A stretch of DNA of 64,000 bases from Lacticaseibacillus parakribbianus (GTDB taxonomy: Bacteria > Bacillota > Bacilli > Lactobacillales > Lactobacillaceae): positions 248,001 through 312,000 of the forward strand of contig NZ_JANQBA010000002.1 in the NCBI RefSeq assembly GCF_025490915.1, in the 5' to 3' direction. Under the pieces are notes generated by a model. That model made no database searches, was not told where the DNA came from, and saw only the letters and a program-made list of their open reading frames with translations. The position numbers and the translations under genes are program-made. Positions within the stretch are counted from its first letter, which is position 1, and each line of letters starts with the position of its first letter. Shown here one piece after another: positions 11,659-43,425 of this stretch.

Positions 11659-11674
11659 TGGCGTTGCGGCATTC

Positions 11675-11701
11675 AAAAATCCGGCGCAGCGCTGCGCCGG
11701 A
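11675..11701 (-). terminator. Terminator at the end of repeat element copy A
   Basis: The 22-bp perfect palindrome at 11680-11701 (TCCGGCGCAGC and its complement) is followed on the minus strand by five T residues. It is placed to end a transcript of roughly 400 nt from the promoter at 12086-12114. Confidence 0.7.
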
Positions 11702-12120
11702 CGCGCCGGAGCCACCGCGGGTCTCGACCCGTGGCGGCCTCGGTCTTCTTGTTGATCGGTGCGTTCTTGTGCTGATTGACCCGCGGCGGCCGCGTTGCGG
11801 CACGGTGCCTTGGGACAAGAAGCCGCCTGTCAGTCGGCGCCGCAGCTACCTCGCGATGCGAGTAGGCGCCAGGCTTTGCGGCAGGCGGATGGTGGTCCAC
11901 ACCCTGGTGGTCGGTCCCAATCGGAGGGGACCGTTGCACGAAAACGTCGGCGTTGTTGCCTGGTACGGCATGGCATGGGTGGGGGTACTGGGAATGCTTA
12001 TGTCCCGGACCTTCCCCCTAAGCAGTAGAGTTGCAAGCGCCGCGGCCGCGGCGTTTTCCCTGCCCGTTGACAATCATCTGATTCTAATGTAAGCCCCGTC
12101 ACCGCCGGCGTCAACTTTTT
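11690..12120 (-). repeat. Dispersed about 430-bp structured element, copy A
   Basis: This region is similar along its length to 42967-43393, with very high identity over 11880-12020. Conserved pieces include a minus-strand promoter, a CGGTCCC/GGGACCG hairpin (11912-11933) and a GGGA...TCCC hairpin near 12000. No convincing long protein is conserved in both copies. It may encode a small RNA of about 400 nt, a type I toxin-antitoxin pair, or be a short mobile repeat. It fills most of the 660-bp gap between the TipAS-type and serine hydrolase genes. Confidence 0.65.
12086..12114 (-). promoter_or_regulatory. Conserved promoter of element copy A
   Basis: On the minus strand, TTGACG (12114-12109) and TACATT (12091-12086) are separated by 17 bp. 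The equivalent promoter in copy B has the same -35 and spacing while the spacer sequence has diverged, which points to selection for transcription. Confidence 0.65.
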
Positions 12121-12261
12121 AGCTCACGTGATTGGGTGCCGGCTTGCGCGATCGACGGCCGCCGATTCAGCCCCCGGCGACCGCCGGCCTGCGCCGGCTC
12201 ACGGTTGCGACCGGTCGGCAACTGACGGCTCCGGTTCCGTGAGGCGGCACCCCGCCAGTGT

Positions 12262-28884: not shown

Positions 28885-31800
28885 CTACTGGCCGCGGAAG
28901 TTGACCCAGCGCCGCAGCCACCGGCGGCTCACCGCGCCGATGCCGGCCAGGCCGACCAAAAGCGCCGCGCCGAGCCACGCGAGACCCCGGGCCTGGGCCT
29001 CGCCGGTTTGCGGCATCGCGGCCTGCTGGTGCTTGGTCGCGGCCGAGTCGGCCCGACCGCGGCCAGTCGCCGCCGGATCCACCCGGCCGTGACCGGCCTG
29101 AGCCGGGGTGGCTGGGCCGCTGCCCGGCTGCTGATCCGGGTTCTGGCCCGGCTTCTGACTTGGCTCTTGTCCCGGCTTCTGGCCCGGCTTCTGACCCGGC
29201 AACTGATCCGTTCCCTGACCCGGCTTCTGGCCGGGCTTTGCGCCAGGTGCCGGCTGCTCGCCAGGCAGCGGCTTATCGCCGGTGCCCGGTTGCGGCTTGG
29301 TCCCGGCGTCGGTGCCGGTTGACGCGTCGCCCGAGCCGCCTGTGCCATCCGAGCCTGCGGAACCGCCCTGGCCATCGCCCTTGCCATCGTTTTTGCCGTC
29401 TTGCTCGCCGGCGTCGCTGCCGTCACCCTTGCCGTCTTTGCCACCCTGGTCGCTGCCACCCTGGTCGGTGCCGTCCTGGTCGGTGCCGTGATTGCTGTCG
29501 CCACCGGTAGCCAGCGGCTTCAACGCCTTTTGGGCGGTCGTCAGCGCCGCCAGCGCCGCGTCGCGGTCGGCCGGGGCCAGGCGATCTTGGGCCAGCGCCT
29601 TTTGCGCGGCGGCCAGGGCCTTTTGGAAGGCCGGTTGGCCGGCCGGGTCGTACTGCGCAAGCACCACGGCCTCGGCCTTGGCGACTGCGGCCGCCAGCTT
29701 GCTGCGATCCAGCGCATGGGCGACCAGCGTGGTGTCGTCGACCACGGTGCCGTCCGGCTGCTGGGCGAGCAGCTGCAGGTGGTTGCCGGCGACATGCGCG
29801 GTCAGGTAAATTTTTTGGTCGGGGTCCTGCTGCAACTTGGCCCAGACGCCAGGCTGCGTCGGCGCAATCTCGTAAGTCTTGTCGCCGGTATGGCCGGCCG
29901 CGACGTAGACGGTACCGCCGGCCTTGGCCTGATCCGCCACCAGCGGCTTGGTGCGGCCGTACGAGTGGTCGTGCCCGTTGAACACCAAGTCGATGCCCAG
30001 CTCGTCGCAGACCGGGGCCAGCTGGTCGTGAAAAAGCATGGCCCCGGCGTCGGCCGGGTTCTTGTTGTACACCGGCTGGTGGGTCAAGACGATTTTCCAG
30101 GTGGCCGCGCTGTGGTTCATGTCCCGCCGCAGCCAGTCCATCTCCGCCTTCATCGTGGCGGCCGAGTCGGTCCAACCGATGGTCGCGATGTGCAGGTTGC
30201 CGTAATCCACCGCGTAGGTTCCGGTCGGGTTGACGCTGGCGCCGTTGCCCCGCGGCACCCCCATCATCGCGGCCGACTTGGTGCCGTCGTCGCCCATGTA
30301 CTCGTGGTTGCCCAGCACGTGCAGCAGGTCCAGCGAGTCGAAGCCGGGGTGGCGGTTGAACATCGCCGCGGTCATGTCGGCCTCCTTGAACAGCGACTGA
30401 TCGTCGTTCCAGTCGCCGACGTGAATCGCGAAGTCCGATTTTTGCTTGGCGCCTTCGATGGCCGTCAGCACCCGGTCAAAATCGGCCAGCCCGGCCGGGT
30501 TCGTGACCTGGGTGTCGCCGAACACGTTGAAGGTCAGGTGGTCAACGGCGGCCAAGGTGGTGAACTGGCGAACGTCGGACCAGTGCGTGCCATCGCCGAC
30601 CCGGTAGCGGTAGGTGGTGTTGGGCGTCAGCTTGGTCGCGGTGACGCTGGACAACTGCAGCGCCTTGCCGTCGCCGCTGTAAGTCAAAAGCTGCGTGGTG
30701 CCGGCCACGTCGGTCCAGCCGGCCGCGGCCGCATCACCGGCGGCCGCCTTGGCGCCGGCAACCTTCGCACTGGTCGCCTTGGCGCTGGCCGCCTTAGAGC
30801 TGACCGCTTTGGCGCCGGTCGCCTTCGCGTGGTCGCCGGAAGCCCCGGCCGTCACCGGTGCCAGCTGCAAGATCGCCTTTTCGGTACCGGGGGCGGTCAT
30901 CCAGGTGAAGGTCTTCATCGTGGTCGGATCGGCGGTGGCACCGGTCAGCAGGTTGGTCGGCGCCGCGGTGAGGCTCGGGGCGAAGACCTGGGTGCTGTAA
31001 TTGAAGGCGTAGGCCTGATCCTTTTGGGCCGTCAGCGTGAGCTTTTGGGCCTTGGCGGTCAGGGCGGCGCTGCTCAGATGCCCGAGCGCGTCGGTGCTAC
31101 CCAAAGCCAGTGGCTTGCCGGCGGCGGTCACGGCCGCCACCTTGACGCCGGCCACCGGCTGGCCGAGGGCGTCGGTGACGGTGACCACGCCCGGGCGGCC
31201 GCTGACCAGCGGGGCCGTGGCCAGGCGCAGCCCCGCCTCAATGGTCGTGGTCTGCGGCGCCGTCGCGAAGGTGCCGGTGGTGTCGTGGCCCGTCGCACCG
31301 GCGAAGCTCACGGTCCCGGCGGTCACGCTGGTGGTCAGCGCGGTGCCGGCCGCCGTCGGCGCCGGCACGGCCACGTCGAGCGTCGCCAGCGGGGCCTGGG
31401 CCCTGGTGGCGGCCTCGGCACCGCGGGTCAGCTGCAGGCTGACGGTCCCGGCGACCGGGTCGGCCTGCCAGGTGCCGGTGACGCCAGGCGCCATAGTCAC
31501 GCCGCGAACCGGGAAGTCGCGACCGACCTGAACGGTGGCCTTGACCGTGCGAACCGCCGCCGGGTTAGCCGCGGTCAAGGCGACGTGAGCGGTGCCGCCT
31601 AGCGCGGCGGTTGACGGGGCGGCCAGGCCGATGGCGGTGTCTTTGGCGGCGGTCGCCACGGTAAAGGTCGCCGTTTGCTCCCCTGTGTTGCCGAAGCCGT
31701 CGGTGGCCACCACCCGGACGCGGTGGGTGCCGTCGGTGAAGTGCAGCCCGTTCAGGCTCAGGGTGCCGTCCTTGTCGTAGGAGTAATGGCCCTTGGCCCC

Positions 31801-33924
31801 AGTGAAGTCCTGCCCGTCGACGAAAATCTGGTTGTGGGTCCAGTCGATCCCGGTGGCATGGGCGTCTTGGGGGTCGTGCAGGGCCGCCGTGATGTTGACG
31901 GCGGCGGTGTGGAACGTGCGATCGGCGACGCTGATTGAATCGACCACCGGTGCGGTCAGGTCGTCGACGTTGGCCCCGTAGACCGCCCGGACGTTGTCGA
32001 CGTACAGCGTCCCCTTGGTCTTGGGACCGCCGCCGGGCAGGCCGGACTTCAGCGACAACAACCGGATCATCTGCCGCGGGAAGGTGGTGAACGGCCCGGC
32101 GTAACTGGCCGGAATCTCGGCCTCGACGTACTTCCAGCCGGTCCAATCCACCCCGTTCTTCTGGTCGGTCAGGTTGATCGGCTTGGTCGAGCCGGTCGGG
32201 TCGGTGATGTACATGCGCAGCCAGTAGCCACGCGCCGCGGCGTCGGCATGGACCCACATGCCCAGCGCGGTCGGGGCCCCGGGAATGCGCAGTGCCTGAC
32301 TCGGCCCGGCGTATGCGCCGAGCGTCGTGCCGGTTTGGGCCTTGGTGAAGTCGTACTGAAGCGCCAGGGAATGGGCCCCGAACCGCACCGGCCCGTCGCC
32401 GGCCTTGGTCGCGACCACGGTGCTGGTTTCGCCGCGGCCGGCGGTGCTGGACTGCCAGTCGCCCAGCCCGTTTTCAAAATCGTACAGGACGCTTGGCAGC
32501 TGCCCCACCGTCAGGCCAAGCGTCGCGCTCAGCTTGGTGTTGGCCACCGTGGCGACCACCGATCCGGCCTGGGACGTGGCGGCGCTGTGCAGCTGGTTGG
32601 CCGCGTCGATGTGGCCGAGCTTGGCGTCGTACTGCCAGGTGATGTCGCCGTCGTGCAGCACCACCGGGCGGCCCTTGTAGGTCGCGCGAAGGCCGAGGTC
32701 GACCACCGCCCCCATTTTGACCGACAGGGCCGGCTGGGTGAAGGCGATCGCGTCCGGCGTCGCGATGGTCAACGTGCTGGTGCCGACCACCTGCGAGCCG
32801 CGGCACAGCTGCACGGTCAGGTCGCCGGTCCGGCCGTTGCCGGTGAAGCGGCCGCTGGTCGCGTCGATGGTGCCAAGCGCCGGCGTCTTCAGCCGCCAGG
32901 TCAGGCCGCTCGGCAGGGCCGCGGTCGCCCCGGAGGCGTCGAGGCCCTTGGCGGTGAAGGCAATCTGCGACCCCGGGGTGTAGACCTGATGGTGCGGCGC
33001 GACCGTCGCGCTGGCGAATTGGTGATCCGCCTTCGCCTTGGACACGATCAGCCAGGAGTCGGCCACCGTGCGTTCCTCGCGGTCGGAAGGCGAGTTGGAC
33101 ACCGACAAGGCGTCTTCACCGGGCTTTCTGGTGACCAGCGTCGTGGAGCCGCCGCCGTCGATGTCGACCGCCTCCACCGCGCCTTTTTCGATCATCAGGG
33201 CCGCCAAGTCGGCCATCGAGCTGCCGTTGCTGTACGGCGCCTGCTGCCCGTCGATGGTGACGAAGAAGACGTCGCCGGCGGCCGTGATGCCGACCGCGGT
33301 TCGCGCGGCGTTGTCGTTAGAAATCGGCGCGGTGTCTTGGACCTTGCCCTGATGCACCAAGATGTTTTGCGACCCCAGCGCCTCTTGGAGGCTCGCCTTC
33401 ACGCTCGGGTACTGCTCGCGGGTGCCGATTACCGGGGTGCCGTCCTTGCGAATGCCGAAAAACGAGCGGTCGGCGCCGCCCGGGGCGTGAAGCTCCACGC
33501 CTTTTTCAATCACGGTGCCGTGCGGCTCGCCGGTCGCCATGTTGAAAAAGTCGGCGTTGACCGCGGCCACCACGTTTTGCCCGTGCTCAATGGCGGCGTT
33601 GGCCATGCCCCGCACCGTCTGCATCCCCACCTTGGTGCCGTCGTTGGGCAGCGCCGCGGCGATGGTCGCCTGGCCGCCCAGGTCGACTCGCACGATATGC
33701 GCGACGGTCTGCTCGCCCCGCTGGTTGATGTATGTATCCTGCTGCGCCGACACGCCCGGTGCCAGCGTCGTGGTGTGTTGCGAGATCAGCTGCTTGGCCA
33801 CCGCCTTGGCGGAGCGGTTGACCGCCACCGCCGGAATGTGTGGCACCGCGGTGACCCCCAGGCCGCCCAATACGCTGGCCGACGTCAGCACCACGGCCCA
33901 TTTTTGCCAATGTTTCACTCTCAT
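28885..33924 (-). CDS. Giant wall-anchored phosphodiester glycosidase / metallophosphatase
   Basis: A 1679-residue exported protein. After a signal peptide (about 1-32) comes a phosphodiester glycosidase (NAGPA) domain (about 60-290; AAVNADFF, DIDGGGSTTL), Ig-like and jelly-roll domains (about 300-950), a purple acid phosphatase-like Fn3 and metallophosphoesterase domain (about 1040-1400; GDTQV, GDWNDD, GNHEY, GHDHS), a helical region, a Gly/Asp-rich and Pro-Gly-Gln-rich wall-spanning segment, and MPQTG (Met1637), a variant sorting signal with Met for Leu, then a membrane helix and basic tail. It may release phosphate or sugars from phosphodiester polymers such as teichoic acids. The ATG at 33924 begins the signal peptide. 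Confidence 0.88.
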   Translation of the reverse strand: MRVKHWQKWAVVLTSASVLGGLGVTAVPHIPAVAVNRSAKAVAKQLISQHTTTLAPGVSAQQDTYINQRGEQTVAHIVRVDLGGQATIAAALPNDGTKVGMQTVRGMANAAIEHGQNVVAAVNADFFNMATGEPHGTVIEKGVELHAPGGADRSFFGIRKDGTPVIGTREQYPSVKASLQEALGSQNILVHQGKVQDTAPISNDNAARTAVGITAAGDVFFVTIDGQQAPYSNGSSMADLAALMIEKGAVEAVDIDGGGSTTLVTRKPGEDALSVSNSPSDREERTVADSWLIVSKAKADHQFASATVAPHHQVYTPGSQIAFTAKGLDASGATAALPSGLTWRLKTPALGTIDATSGRFTGNGRTGDLTVQLCRGSQVVGTSTLTIATPDAIAFTQPALSVKMGAVVDLGLRATYKGRPVVLHDGDITWQYDAKLGHIDAANQLHSAATSQAGSVVATVANTKLSATLGLTVGQLPSVLYDFENGLGDWQSSTAGRGETSTVVATKAGDGPVRFGAHSLALQYDFTKAQTGTTLGAYAGPSQALRIPGAPTALGMWVHADAAARGYWLRMYITDPTGSTKPINLTDQKNGVDWTGWKYVEAEIPASYAGPFTTFPRQMIRLLSLKSGLPGGGPKTKGTLYVDNVRAVYGANVDDLTAPVVDSISVADRTFHTAAVNITAALHDPQDAHATGIDWTHNQIFVDGQDFTGAKGHYSYDKDGTLSLNGLHFTDGTHRVRVVATDGFGNTGEQTATFTVATAAKDTAIGLAAPSTAALGGTAHVALTAANPAAVRTVKATVQVGRDFPVRGVTMAPGVTGTWQADPVAGTVSLQLTRGAEAATRAQAPLATLDVAVPAPTAAGTALTTSVTAGTVSFAGATGHDTTGTFATAPQTTTIEAGLRLATAPLVSGRPGVVTVTDALGQPVAGVKVAAVTAAGKPLALGSTDALGHLSSAALTAKAQKLTLTAQKDQAYAFNYSTQVFAPSLTAAPTNLLTGATADPTTMKTFTWMTAPGTEKAILQLAPVTAGASGDHAKATGAKAVSSKAASAKATSAKVAGAKAAAGDAAAAGWTDVAGTTQLLTYSGDGKALQLSSVTATKLTPNTTYRYRVGDGTHWSDVRQFTTLAAVDHLTFNVFGDTQVTNPAGLADFDRVLTAIEGAKQKSDFAIHVGDWNDDQSLFKEADMTAAMFNRHPGFDSLDLLHVLGNHEYMGDDGTKSAAMMGVPRGNGASVNPTGTYAVDYGNLHIATIGWTDSAATMKAEMDWLRRDMNHSAATWKIVLTHQPVYNKNPADAGAMLFHDQLAPVCDELGIDLVFNGHDHSYGRTKPLVADQAKAGGTVYVAAGHTGDKTYEIAPTQPGVWAKLQQDPDQKIYLTAHVAGNHLQLLAQQPDGTVVDDTTLVAHALDRSKLAAAVAKAEAVVLAQYDPAGQPAFQKALAAAQKALAQDRLAPADRDAALAALTTAQKALKPLATGGDSNHGTDQDGTDQGGSDQGGKDGKGDGSDAGEQDGKNDGKGDGQGGSAGSDGTGGSGDASTGTDAGTKPQPGTGDKPLPGEQPAPGAKPGQKPGQGTDQLPGQKPGQKPGQEPSQKPGQNPDQQPGSGPATPAQAGHGRVDPAATGRGRADSAATKHQQAAMPQTGEAQARGLAWLGAALLVGLAGIGAVSRRWLRRWVNFRGQ

Positions 33925-33973
33925 TCTCTCGTCTCCCCAAACCCAGTTTGGTCCGGCCCTGCCGGACTCAGCC

Positions 33974-33979
33974 AGTGTA
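33974..33979 (-). promoter_or_regulatory. -10 of the giant phosphatase gene, with poor -35
   Basis: TACACT lies about 50 bases before the start. At 17-bp spacing the -35 is only TTAGCG, consistent with a promoter needing an activator. Confidence 0.5.
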
Positions 33980-34007
33980 GCGCGTGAATGTATCCCCGCT
34001 AACGCCG

Positions 34008-34040
34008 CAGTGTAAGGGTTGCGTAAAAATTGCGTAAAAA
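34008..34040 (-). promoter_or_regulatory. Three 11-bp direct repeats resembling a Pho box
   Basis: On the minus strand the units read TTTTTACGCAA twice and then CCCTTACACTG, so TTTACG, TTTACG and CTTACA recur every 11 bp immediately upstream of the weak -35. PhoP-type regulators bind TTnACA-like hexamers at this spacing. The downstream phosphatase domain makes phosphate control plausible. Confidence 0.6.
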
Positions 34041-34127
34041 CGCCGGCGAATGAGACGAAACGGCCAGCACACAATCACCTCCAAGCAAAAGCCGCAATAC
34101 CGGGATTTGTACTGGACTAACGGCAGA

Positions 34128-39663: not shown

Positions 39664-39718
39664 TGCATATATGCAAATCCGGCGAAGCAGGCGGAAATCC
39701 ACATGCATATATGTAATT
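39664..39718. repeat. Direct repeats of TGCATATATG in the leader
   Basis: TGCATATATGCAAAT (39664-39678) and TGCATATATGTAATT (39704-39718) are 40 bp apart in the untranslated leader of the SEC10/PgrA-like gene. Each is nearly palindromic, so they may bind a regulator. Confidence 0.6.
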
Positions 39719-39801
39719 TTCGGCTGCGATGGCGGGCGCAACAATTATCGATCACGACCGATATTGCAGCCGAGCAAATAAAGTTTGGAGGCACACGTAT
39801 T

Positions 39802-42765
39802 ATGACGCAAACACGTCAGGATTATCGAGCGCAACGGCTCCCCCAAGGGCCGACCCTACATAAAGGTAAGTTGACACTTGCCGCCACGCTGGCGGCGGCC
39901 GCAATCACCGGTATCGGCGGCCACGCCGTCGTGCAGGCCGACACAACGGCCCCGACCCCCGCCCCGGCCGATCAGACCCAGCCGACCACCACCGCGACGG
40001 CAACCAGCGCCACCCCGGTAGAGCAGGCGCAAGCGGCCGTCACCACCGCCCAGGCCCAAGCCACCACCGCGACGCAGGCACAGGCCGCGGCACAGGCCAA
40101 AGCCGATTCGGCGACCGCAGCCGAAACCAAGGCCGCCCAAACCGTGACCGCCGGTGAGGCCCAGGCCCAAGCGGCCGCCCAAACCGTGAAGGCGGCCCAA
40201 GCCAGTGTCGCCACGGCGCAGGCCGACGTCACCGCCGCCCAAAGCGCGGCCGAACACGCCACCCCGGCCGATCAGGCGGCCGCGGCGCAGGCCGTGACAG
40301 AGGCTACGGCCGCCGTTGCGGCCAAAACCGCAGCCCAGACCAAGGCCCAGTCAACCGTTGACGCGGATGCCGGCACCGTCCAGACCGCCAAGACCGCCGT
40401 CACCACCGCCACCCAGGCGCAGGCCGAGGCCAAGGCCCAAGCCGCGACGGCCGACGCCGCGGTGGCTGCCGCAGCCAAGAAAACCGACACCGGCAAGGCC
40501 CTGACGGCACTCAACAACGCCAAGGCCGCCGAAGCAAAAGCCCAGGCCGTCGTCGACCAGGCCCAGGCCGCCGTCGCCGCTGCGACTAAGGCGAGCGACA
40601 ACGCCGCCACTGCCCAGGCCAAGGCCGCCTTGACCACTGCCCAACAAGCACTCACCAAGGCCACAGCCAACCTGACCGCCGCCAAGGCCGCCGTCAAGAC
40701 GGCCCAAACCGGCGTCACCACGGCGCAGCAGGCACTGGATCAGGCCACCGCGGCCTTGACCGCCGCCAAGCGCCAATCCAGCACCAAGAGCGGCGTCAAG
40801 GTGACCGTCACCGCAACGCTGAAGAAGGCGGTGACCAAGTACATCCAAGACACCCAGGCCCAAGCCAGCGTCAAGACCCGCGTCGCCGACATGAACGCGA
40901 TCAACCAGGCGTTCGGCGGCGACTCCGCCAACGGCCATTTGACCCTCGCCTACACCGGCAACACCGCCAACGACAAAAAGGTCTTCAAGATCTCGCGCGA
41001 CTACAACGACACGCTCAAGCAGCTGAACTCCGCCGAGATCACCGAGCTGGTGCAGACGCTGGCCGGCGCCATCAACGAGATTCGCACCCAGTTCGGGATC
41101 ATCGACAAGGTCGGCGCGGTCAAGGTCAACCAAGACACCATCGCCTTGGCCAAGGCCGTCAATGCGGCCGCGGTCAAGGGTGGCGACATCACCGATACTT
41201 TGGACCACCTCGCCAAGACCTCGGGCGTCGACGAGAACCTGATCATCCAGCAAGTCGTGTCCGATGACCAAGACGTCGGCATCGCGGATTGGTCCGTCAC
41301 GCAACACACCATGACCTTCAAGGAGGTCAAGGAACGCGCCTTGATGGCCTTCGTCTTCAATCAGGTCTACAGTGTCGGGGCCGACATCTACGCCGACCGC
41401 ACCGCCACCGTTGAGAACGACACCACCTTCTTGCCCGGCAAACAGATCCTGGGCATCGCCAACTACCAGTTGGCCTCGATTGCCGCTAACGGCGTCCACG
41501 ACGCCTTCTTCGGGGCCTGGGACACCTTCTTCGGCGCCGACCCGGCGACCATGGAGGCCTACCGCATGATTTTCGTGCCGGACACCGCCGCGTCTTTCGG
41601 CAACGCCGCCAATTTTGACCGCACCGTGATCACCACGCCTGGCCTGACCAGCGGTGCCAAGGTCGACACCACCAAGCAGGCGGCGGCCGTCGCCACCGCC
41701 ACCGCCCAGCTGACAGCCGCCAAGGCGGCGCTGACCCAGGCCAAGGCCGCGCAGACCGCGGCGCAAACAGGCGTCACCACCGCCACTGCCGCCGTCGCCC
41801 AAAAGAAGGTCACCCAGCTGACCGCCGGCAGCAAGGCCAACGCCGCCGCACTGGCCGCCGCCCAAAAGACGCTGGCCAAGGCCCAAGACGCACTAAAAAA
41901 GGCCCAGGCCGCAACCGCCAAGGCGCAGACCGCCTACACCAACAGCCTGAAGTCGCAGTCCGAACAGGCCGCCGCGCTGAAGCAGGCCCAGGCCACCGCC
42001 GCTGCCGCCCAGGCCGCGCTGAAGCAGGCCACGTCAACGCTGACCAGCGCCAAGCAGGCACTGACCGCGGCCCTCGCCAAGCAAAAAGCCGACACGACGG
42101 CGCTGACCGCCGCCAAGGCCGCAGTCGCCAAGGCTCGGGCCGCGTTGGTTGCGGCCCAAAAGCAGGCCGCCCTGCTGGCCGATGTGCCGGCGGCCCAAGC
42201 GTCGGCGTTAGCCGCCCTGGCCGCGGCGAAGACCGAACTGGCCGCGGCCCAAACCGCCTACGACCAGGCCACGGCCAAGCTCGCCGCCTTGAAGCAATCC
42301 CTAACCGCCGCCAAGACCACCGCTCATACCGCCAAGGCGGCGCTGGCCGAGGCCACAGCCGCAACCGCCGCCGCCCAAACCAGGCTCGCCGCCGCCAAAA
42401 CCAAGCTGGCCAAGCTGACCCACACGGAATCGCTTGAGGACAATGTGGCGCGTCAGCAACACGCGCTGGCCGGCAAGCCGGCCGCCGGCACCGCGACCCA
42501 CGCAGTCGCCGTCGCCCACCCGGGCAAGCTAACCGCCGTCGCGGCCGGCGCGGCTGACAAGGCCGGCGTGACCGCCGTCAACCCGGTGATCGCGGCCGCA
42601 CCAACTGCCACGACCACCGCGACCGGCGCCGCCAAGGCTGCCGGCCGCGATCTGCCGCAAACCGGCGAGGCGACCCGGGCGGCCGCCTTGCTGAGCGTGA
42701 CCGGCGTGGCCGCGCTGCTCTCGCTGTTCGGCCTCACCGGATGGCGCAAGCGCCGCGAGTACTAA
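39802..42765 (+). CDS. Alanine-rich coiled-coil LPxTG surface protein, SEC10/PgrA-like
   Basis: A 987-residue wall-anchored protein: signal peptide (1-46, ending VVQAD), an Ala/Gln/Thr/Lys heptad-rich coiled coil (about 60-330), a globular region (about 335-620) resembling the SEC10/PgrA surface-exclusion domain, a second coiled coil (about 635-905), then LPQTG (Leu951), membrane helix and KRRREY. Relatives are surface-exclusion or aggregation-related proteins of enterococcal plasmids and lactobacilli. The ATG at 39802 follows TTTGGAGG. It is monocistronic. Ligand unknown. Confidence 0.88.
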   Translation: MTQTRQDYRAQRLPQGPTLHKGKLTLAATLAAAAITGIGGHAVVQADTTAPTPAPADQTQPTTTATATSATPVEQAQAAVTTAQAQATTATQAQAAAQAKADSATAAETKAAQTVTAGEAQAQAAAQTVKAAQASVATAQADVTAAQSAAEHATPADQAAAAQAVTEATAAVAAKTAAQTKAQSTVDADAGTVQTAKTAVTTATQAQAEAKAQAATADAAVAAAAKKTDTGKALTALNNAKAAEAKAQAVVDQAQAAVAAATKASDNAATAQAKAALTTAQQALTKATANLTAAKAAVKTAQTGVTTAQQALDQATAALTAAKRQSSTKSGVKVTVTATLKKAVTKYIQDTQAQASVKTRVADMNAINQAFGGDSANGHLTLAYTGNTANDKKVFKISRDYNDTLKQLNSAEITELVQTLAGAINEIRTQFGIIDKVGAVKVNQDTIALAKAVNAAAVKGGDITDTLDHLAKTSGVDENLIIQQVVSDDQDVGIADWSVTQHTMTFKEVKERALMAFVFNQVYSVGADIYADRTATVENDTTFLPGKQILGIANYQLASIAANGVHDAFFGAWDTFFGADPATMEAYRMIFVPDTAASFGNAANFDRTVITTPGLTSGAKVDTTKQAAAVATATAQLTAAKAALTQAKAAQTAAQTGVTTATAAVAQKKVTQLTAGSKANAAALAAAQKTLAKAQDALKKAQAATAKAQTAYTNSLKSQSEQAAALKQAQATAAAAQAALKQATSTLTSAKQALTAALAKQKADTTALTAAKAAVAKARAALVAAQKQAALLADVPAAQASALAALAAAKTELAAAQTAYDQATAKLAALKQSLTAAKTTAHTAKAALAEATAATAAAQTRLAAAKTKLAKLTHTESLEDNVARQQHALAGKPAAGTATHAVAVAHPGKLTAVAAGAADKAGVTAVNPVIAAAPTATTTATGAAKAAGRDLPQTGEATRAAALLSVTGVAALLSLFGLTGWRKRREY

Positions 42766-42869: not shown

Positions 42870-42966
42870 GCTTGCCGTGGCCACGGTGCCGCGGTCCAAG
42901 CGGTGACGCCGGCAGGCAATCGTCGACCCGCGCCACGCAGCGCCTGGCCCACACCGGCCCCAAATG

Positions 42967-43393
42967 CGCCGGACGCGCCGAAGCCACCCAGCGACTTGCG
43001 CTCGGCGGCTAAGGCTTGCTGATTGGTGATTGACGCTGGTTTCGCCCCCGCGAGCCGGCACAGGTCGACTCGCGGTACATGCTGGCTGGTACAAGCTCCC
43101 TGTCAGTTCGGCACCGCAGCTACCTCGCAAGCGAGTAGGCACCGGACTGTGCGGCAGGAAGATGGTGGTCCACACCCTGGTGGTCGGTCCCAATCGGAGG
43201 GGACCGTTGCGCGAAAACGTCGGCGTTGTTGCCTGGTACGGCATGGCATGAGTGGGGTACTGGGAATGCTTATGTCCCGGACCGTTCCCCATAGACAGTG
43301 GTCGTGCTGCGGCTGTGATCAAAGCCGCCTCCCCGTCCTAAGATAATCATCTGAGGCTAGTGTAAGCCCTGTCATTTTGCCCGTCAACTTTTT
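42967..43393 (-). repeat. Dispersed about 430-bp structured element, copy B
   Basis: Similar to 11690-12120, nearly identical over about 43155-43285. The promoter and both main hairpins are kept, but the second half of the terminator palindrome of copy A is missing: similarity stops at about 42967. Together with the long terminator this fills the 750-bp gap between the SEC10/PgrA-like gene and rpsI. Confidence 0.65.
43359..43387 (-). promoter_or_regulatory. Conserved promoter of element copy B
   Basis: TTGACG (43387-43382) and TACACT (43364-43359) are 17 bp apart on the minus strand. Confidence 0.65.
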
Positions 43394-43425
43394 AGCTCGC
43401 CACGTGGCGCAGAAGGCACAAAAAT

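Follow-up and report, generated by a model that had tools for sequence, protein, structure and literature searches.

The window analysed here, a 64-kb stretch of Lacticaseibacillus parakribbianus DNA with a GC content of 62%, carries two related segments, copy A and copy B, which lie at the positions stated in a preliminary description of the same DNA. Their features, with the ends of the copy A RNA (from ~12079 to ~11675) placed by its promoter and terminator, are as follows.

11674..12125, minus strand: copy A, whole unit from GAG box to terminator, with a predicted RNA of ~405 nt
12115..12125, minus strand: conserved box GAGCTAAAAAG of copy A, directly 5' of the -35
12086..12114, minus strand: promoter of copy A (-35 TTGACG at 12109-12114, 17 bp, -10 TACATT at 12086-12091)
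11835..12018, minus strand: conserved 5' domain core of copy A, the input for covariance models R1 and R2
11952..12002, plus strand: peptide frame VVAWYGMAWVGVLGMLM of the preliminary description, unconserved and judged not to be a gene
11913..11932, minus strand: hairpin GGTCCC-CTCCGATT-GGGACC of copy A, with a compensatory change in copy L027
11840..11866, minus strand: near-invariant motif CCTACTCGC..GCGAGGTAGCTGCGG of copy A
11747..11821, minus strand: variable 3' region of copy A, which differs widely among copies of subfamilies 1-3
11704..11739, minus strand: 3' closing stem GGCCGCCACGGG..CCCGCGGTGGC of copy A
11674..11702, minus strand: intrinsic terminator of the copy A RNA
42954..43398, minus strand: copy B, whole unit with an intact promoter and a degenerate 3' terminator arm
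43359..43387, minus strand: promoter of copy B, TTGACG-17-TACACT
43186-43205, minus strand: hairpin of copy B
43109..43291, minus strand: conserved 5' domain core of copy B

What the preliminary description had read in the two segments is confirmed: (i) a minus-strand promoter, a hairpin and a near-invariant block of ~140 bp in both, (ii) a terminator in copy A that predicts an RNA of about 400 nt and (iii) a plus-strand peptide frame in copy A that is broken by a stop in copy B. At the 3' end, our terminator script scored a stronger hairpin further downstream of copy A rather than its own terminator, and it scored no terminator in copy B, where the 5' arm is present and the U-run absent. Both copies score 202 bits with R1, a model built from these two and 36 others, and there is no further R1 match inside the window at E values up to 1. 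Rfam returns nothing at gathering score in the window except an L13_leader (RF00555, 44390-44447, minus strand, 51.8 bits), an ordinary ribosomal protein leader directly upstream of rplM-rpsI, the other matches being sub-threshold. Large surface-type proteins are encoded at 28885-34074 (minus strand) and 39703-42765 (plus strand), one with an LPXTG anchor match over the cut-off and one with a surface exclusion domain match below it.

Two copies, the number originally given, is a considerable undercount. BLASTN, a check suggested in the preliminary description, and the two covariance models brought to light many further copies: in the genome of origin (2.82 Mb, a draft in 32 contigs), copy A has 44 matches from ~40 loci, R1 has 55 and the broader covariance model R2 has 59 (150 candidates scored). 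A subfamily 7 query added four fragments at contig ends, of which two hold the 5' part and two the 3' part; they imply at least two further copies, bringing the total to 61 or more. When 795 kb were scanned directly as 40 tiles, with tile ends every 20 kb at which a border copy could escape, 20 copies came up, all at E <= 7e-14, and nothing else below E 0.02; these are identical to the R2 set for the same stretches, and BLAST recovers the same 20. We predict that each segment is a noncoding RNA gene that stands on its own, one member of a larger family.

Besides our species, the one carrier found to date is its sister, Lacticaseibacillus kribbianus, with 14 R2 matches. R2 matched these two of 30 Lacticaseibacillus genomes and none of the 28 others (84 candidates per genome scored, 88 in the R1 search), nor did it match a third genome among 397 of the family (6 candidates per genome); these genome-wide searches score part of the candidates, so absence elsewhere is a weaker result than presence. 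Outside the family, 295 genomes of the order (8 candidates per genome) gave four weak matches of 18-22 bits that we take as chance; the two that were inspected both align over a short piece only, and one of them (L198) runs antisense to an open frame. Scanning all named genome contigs for a motif gave seven hits: five belong to L. kribbianus, and the other two (Rhodobacteraceae and Gracilibacillus) have no R2 match. Phage, plasmid and viral-contig collections held no convincing copy for the queries tried, which were copy A, L131 and L095 against both phages and plasmids, L079 against plasmids only, and three patterns for viral contigs, whose single match had no R2 match. Seven loci of other subfamilies gave no Rfam match at gathering score, only sub-threshold ones.

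Among the 73 copies in hand (59 of our species and 14 of L. kribbianus), two (L045 and L076) run into a contig end short of a full promoter, which leaves 71 with a readable 5' region, and 69 of these have a sigma-A-type promoter with a spacing of exactly 17 bp. Later-found copies were anchored on the -35 by a script, and the exceptions, sought by hand, are L030, which lies near a contig start and has its upstream sequence present, and L093 of L. kribbianus, which has lost its 5' part. These four copies stand outside the 69-copy counts; the alignments are without L030 and L045, and the cross-species comparison is also without L093. The -35 and -10 positions are near invariant, spacer positions and flanks are variable, and most copies (51 of 56 own, 8 of 13 in L. 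kribbianus) have a GAG box 11-12 nt 5' of the -35. A terminator-like hairpin with a T-run follows in 58 of 69 copies, as scored by a script that picks the strongest hairpin and not always the last one of the RNA, and the same script finds none in 11, copy B included. Two copies, L078 and L089, were wrongly positioned in this count and in the identity comparisons, L078 also in the test on subfamilies of neighbours; once re-anchored, each shows its promoter. The distance to the terminator is ~375-420 nt in most copies and ~410-520 nt in subfamily 5, the predicted RNA is ~390 nt long in most copies, and subfamily 7 units reach ~680 bp. The RNA begins with a conserved 5' domain of ~300 nt, at the very 5' end of which a small hairpin is possible on our reading, and has a variable 3' region in subfamilies 1-3. 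The units have sharp boundaries and unrelated flanks.

Two subfamilies carry further signals. The -35 of subfamily 7 (L131-L134) is TTGCCA, and an inverted repeat CAGGTAA..TTACCTG, a possible repressor site, overlaps it and the spacer. Shortly 3' of the terminator in subfamily 5 (L085, L086, L094-L097 and L099) lies a palindrome-like sequence, TACTTTGC..GCAAAGTA, which is imperfect in some copies; by eye, a PadR-like regulator gene starts next at L085 and L097.

The helices predicted for the RNA are supported by covariation. In the 184-nt core, 98.2% of cells are paired vs 89.6% in shuffles, 108 cells are changed on both sides vs 33.3, and pairing drops to ~50% when partners slide by one column; two of the five core measures are weak, with 12 pairs changed on both sides vs 9.6 in shuffles (a level that 23 of 500 reach) and 32 further pair types vs 29.8 (reached by 92 of 500). 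For the whole RNA, aligned in 31 copies of subfamilies 1-3, 42 of 106 pairs are changed on both sides vs 31.0 and 290 cells vs 92.9, with neither count reached in 500 shuffles; these values, like those for the core, are strong evidence rather than formal probabilities, since the structures come from the same alignments and the shuffles ignore relatedness. When all subfamilies are aligned, the automatic consensus retains only 12 base pairs, which we take as a limit of the alignment. The preliminary description had staked its case on further copies and on compensatory changes, and both were found. Two specific roles were set aside: anti-Shine-Dalgarno action via a CCTCC loop, because subfamily 4 does not have CCTCC in the loop, and use of the variable region as a phage guide, for which the copy A region gave seven weak partial matches (E 0.3-0.9) taken as chance.

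These units seem to make no protein. There is no conserved reading frame: 1-nt indels occur among the copies, and the longest frame of a copy varies between 32 and 129 codons in sense and between 36 and 126 in antisense orientation. One explanation put forward early on was a decayed type I toxin with antisense RNA, in favour of which copy A does have a hydrophobic frame of 17 residues. However, this frame is uninterrupted in only 10 of 38 aligned copies, being shifted or stopped in the others, and its sequence is strongly unlike that of copy A in six of those ten, which refutes a type I toxin as the general role of the family and makes even a decayed one highly improbable.

Within each species, the copies appear to have evolved in concert. 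At five usable shared loci (the L075/L089 pair being left out), the RNAs share 54-67% identity across the two species, whereas each matches the closest paralogue in its own genome at 86-100%. Among the 40 pairs of highest similarity, identity is 97-100% over the first 150 nt but falls to 15-38% over the stretch 60-120 nt upstream, L091/L092 (78%) being the one exception; the promoter region lies in between, its -35 and -10 preserved. Gene conversion among copies would leave such a pattern. Since neither carrier genome (our own being the 32-contig draft) has a match to reverse transcriptase (PF00078), which is found in 11 of 30 genomes of the genus, DNA-level recombination would be the simpler cause, and spread by a retroelement or cDNA was rejected on the same ground.

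Several loci, recognised by neighbouring proteins or DNA, are common to both species and are therefore old. L009 and L093 lie in the same gene interval, with the RNA in opposite orientation in the sister species. Other sites differ in occupancy: the matched flanks of copy A are 77 bp apart in L. kribbianus vs 663 bp here, with no RNA between them. For copy B only the rpsI side could be matched: in L. kribbianus a similar terminator comes after rpsI, beyond it the DNA is different, and the 2.8 kb examined hold no RNA; an L. kribbianus copy of another subfamily (L096, at position 35302 of contig C1 of that species) lies ~4 kb further on, which counts against a simple reading of this absence. In subfamily 7, copies at unrelated sites share 95-99% identity with L131 along ~680 bp, and visual inspection of the ends of its four full copies showed neither terminal inverted repeats nor target duplications.

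In our species the copies are spaced along the chromosome more evenly than expected by chance. According to gene calls made with a simple codon-usage script, none of 70 copies (both species) lies inside a called gene, and the gene upstream has the same direction as the RNA in 54 of 70; the gene downstream has the same direction in 39 and the opposite one in 31. Neighbours differ from copy to copy in the part of the neighbour listing examined by eye, and 34 of the 56 own copies have at least four consecutive T no more than 75 nt upstream of the -35 (a raw count). The 59 matches and four fragments define 44 within-contig intervals, the shortest of which is 19.1 kb; none is below 15 kb vs 14.7 expected, and their coefficient of variation (CV) is 0.56 vs 0.91 expected, values reached in 0 of 20000 simulations. 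Sampling from gene ends rather than random points on the three tiled contigs gave P values of 5e-5 (minimum) and 1e-4 (CV), whereas the 14 copies of L. kribbianus show no clear evenness (P 0.05 for the minimum and 0.44 for the CV). There is no clear tendency for adjacent copies to belong to different subfamilies (P 0.48 and 0.055). As for orientation, 17 of 20 tiled copies follow the local gene majority, and on contig C1 of our species copy direction switches where GC skew changes sign, except for one subfamily 7 copy; over short flanks, only 33 of 56 copies have a skew in favour of the RNA strand. At ~120000-160000 of this contig the direction of the genes and the GC skew both change, suggesting a replication terminus, and the RNA copies that flank it are 76 kb apart.

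The segments most likely encode trans-acting structured RNAs, and our preferred reading, to which we give a probability of about one half, is that each would be a separate gene whose product is a long structured noncoding RNA of several domains, the copies forming a redundant trans-acting pool kept by host selection. What the sequence itself shows is a promoter, a predicted ~390-nt RNA, usually a terminator, and covarying helices in ~60 dispersed copies. Beyond this, (i) the copies would be transcribed, (ii) their RNAs would act in trans as a redundant pool, (iii) the conserved 5' domain probably serves as a scaffold or as a docking surface to which a protein, the ribosome or another RNA attaches and (iv) the variable 3' hairpins may either tolerate change or tune individual copies. 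Gene conversion would cause the likeness within species, and selection at the level of the host would maintain nearly all promoters. Frequent ectopic recombination could both homogenise the RNAs and remove copies landing too close together, which would explain the minimum spacing because close direct repeats delete the intervening DNA unless a needed gene lies inside. A multicopy regulatory RNA, one of the explanations offered in the preliminary description, is the one that fits best, given the promoters, the covarying helices and the want of a conserved frame, with regulation itself as a putative role. Several points weigh against such RNA genes: even spacing lies outside a simple dosage model, so that the recombination just mentioned has to be assumed in addition; restriction to two species is unusual for a useful regulator; two copies (L030 and L093) are promoterless and 11 of 69 are terminatorless by script; and neighbours are not clearly of different subfamilies, two core covariation measures are weak and the all-subfamily consensus has 12 pairs.

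Nearly as good an account of these facts is a selfish element whose copies avoid one another. It would be a non-autonomous mobile element, with a transcript that aids its own spread and an avoidance of near copies resembling transposon target immunity, and we regard it as possible, if rather doubtful. Sharp boundaries with unrelated flanks are what such an element would show, as are near-identical subfamily 7 copies at unrelated sites, the 19-kb minimum in 44 intervals and the bias towards sites after genes of the same direction. The matching copy A site in L. kribbianus, where the element is missing, and the absence of copy B directly after rpsI there point the same way, and in this difference in presence between species the small mobile repeat of the preliminary description is partly right. 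Against it, visual inspection (subfamily 7) showed neither transposon ends nor duplicated targets and no protein is encoded, to which are added the missing reverse transcriptase match in both carriers and the fact that none of the queries used brought up a convincing copy from phages, plasmids or viral contigs. What tips the balance to a host RNA gene is that promoters are intact in 69 of 71 copies and that several loci are shared and old. The even spacing could also be that of a chromosome-organising element, that is, evenly spaced, replication-directed transcribed units acting as boundaries or supercoiling barriers, for which the act of transcription would matter more than the RNA. Orientation with the local gene majority and, but for one copy, with GC skew on contig C1 agrees with this. 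The detailed covarying structure and the homogenised sequence argue that the RNA itself matters, L. kribbianus has only 14 copies with no clear evenness and short-flank GC skew agrees poorly, all of which makes such an element unlikely. The position of most copies after a gene of the same direction would also suit a cis-regulatory leader or 3' element of neighbouring genes, as would the repressor-like palindrome that follows subfamily 5 units and the PadR-like gene at two of them. However, the units have their own promoter and mostly their own terminator, the downstream gene is opposite in 31 of 70 and the neighbours vary, and we consider a cis element very improbable.

About sixty such RNA genes, evenly spaced and directed with replication, might together make up a lattice across the whole genome, with recombination both homogenising the RNAs and fixing how close two copies can lie, a chromosome-scale RNA system that could be functional or selfish. 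This is a tentative proposal that we hold to be more doubtful than not by a good way; if true, it would be a kind of system undescribed in the literature searched, which was covered in part. By our estimate (61 copies of ~0.45 kb), ~1% of a small genome belongs to one RNA family that has no Rfam match, and its copy number, even spacing and concerted evolution are surprising for a noncoding RNA of bacteria other than rRNA and tRNA. With ~60 copies in one species and 14 in the other, the pair makes the role of multicopy large RNAs in lactobacilli directly testable.

The literature searched, again with partial coverage, yielded no paper on this RNA family, which shares traits with several known systems. 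With insertion sequences and MITEs it has in common presence or absence at matching sites of relatives (both flanks for copy A, one for copy B). With sibling trans-acting sRNAs, such as LhrC, which are short and present in few copies, it shares an organisation in standalone paralogous units with predicted transcription (promoter in 69 of 71 and terminator-like hairpin in 58 of 69). LhrC and other Gram-positive sibling sRNAs have several related loci per genome, according to the part of the source available (PMC13350326). FopS of Bacteroides thetaiotaomicron, in the sections available, comprises 14 paralogous sRNAs with a conserved 5' end and diverse downstream sequence, much like the present copies, but these sRNAs belong to another phylum and have a known protein partner, RbpB, and known targets (PMC11697453), whereas here there are ~60 long structured copies known from sequence alone. 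ROOL and GOLLD, the latter named partly after Lactobacillales, are also large ornate RNAs, described in the extract available as of unknown or poorly understood function, phage- or prophage-borne and often near tRNA islands (PMC12286853); they differ in being phage- or prophage-encoded, and here no Rfam covariance model matches the two window copies or the seven loci of other subfamilies at gathering score. The closest precedent in kind would be the L. plantarum supermotifs (LPSMs), which are compared here by description only. In the portion available of the paper that cites them, these are intergenic RNAs, transcribed and stable, that occur in many copies, measure 800-1000 nt, are described as cruciform and were not found in other Lactobacillus species (Wels et al., 2009, cited in PMC5643018). 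The present family is likewise a large intergenic structured RNA with many dispersed copies and a species-restricted distribution, in two sister species instead of one; as far as that portion describes LPSMs, it differs from them in length (~390 nt in most copies, ~680 bp in subfamily 7), in its even spacing and in its concerted evolution.
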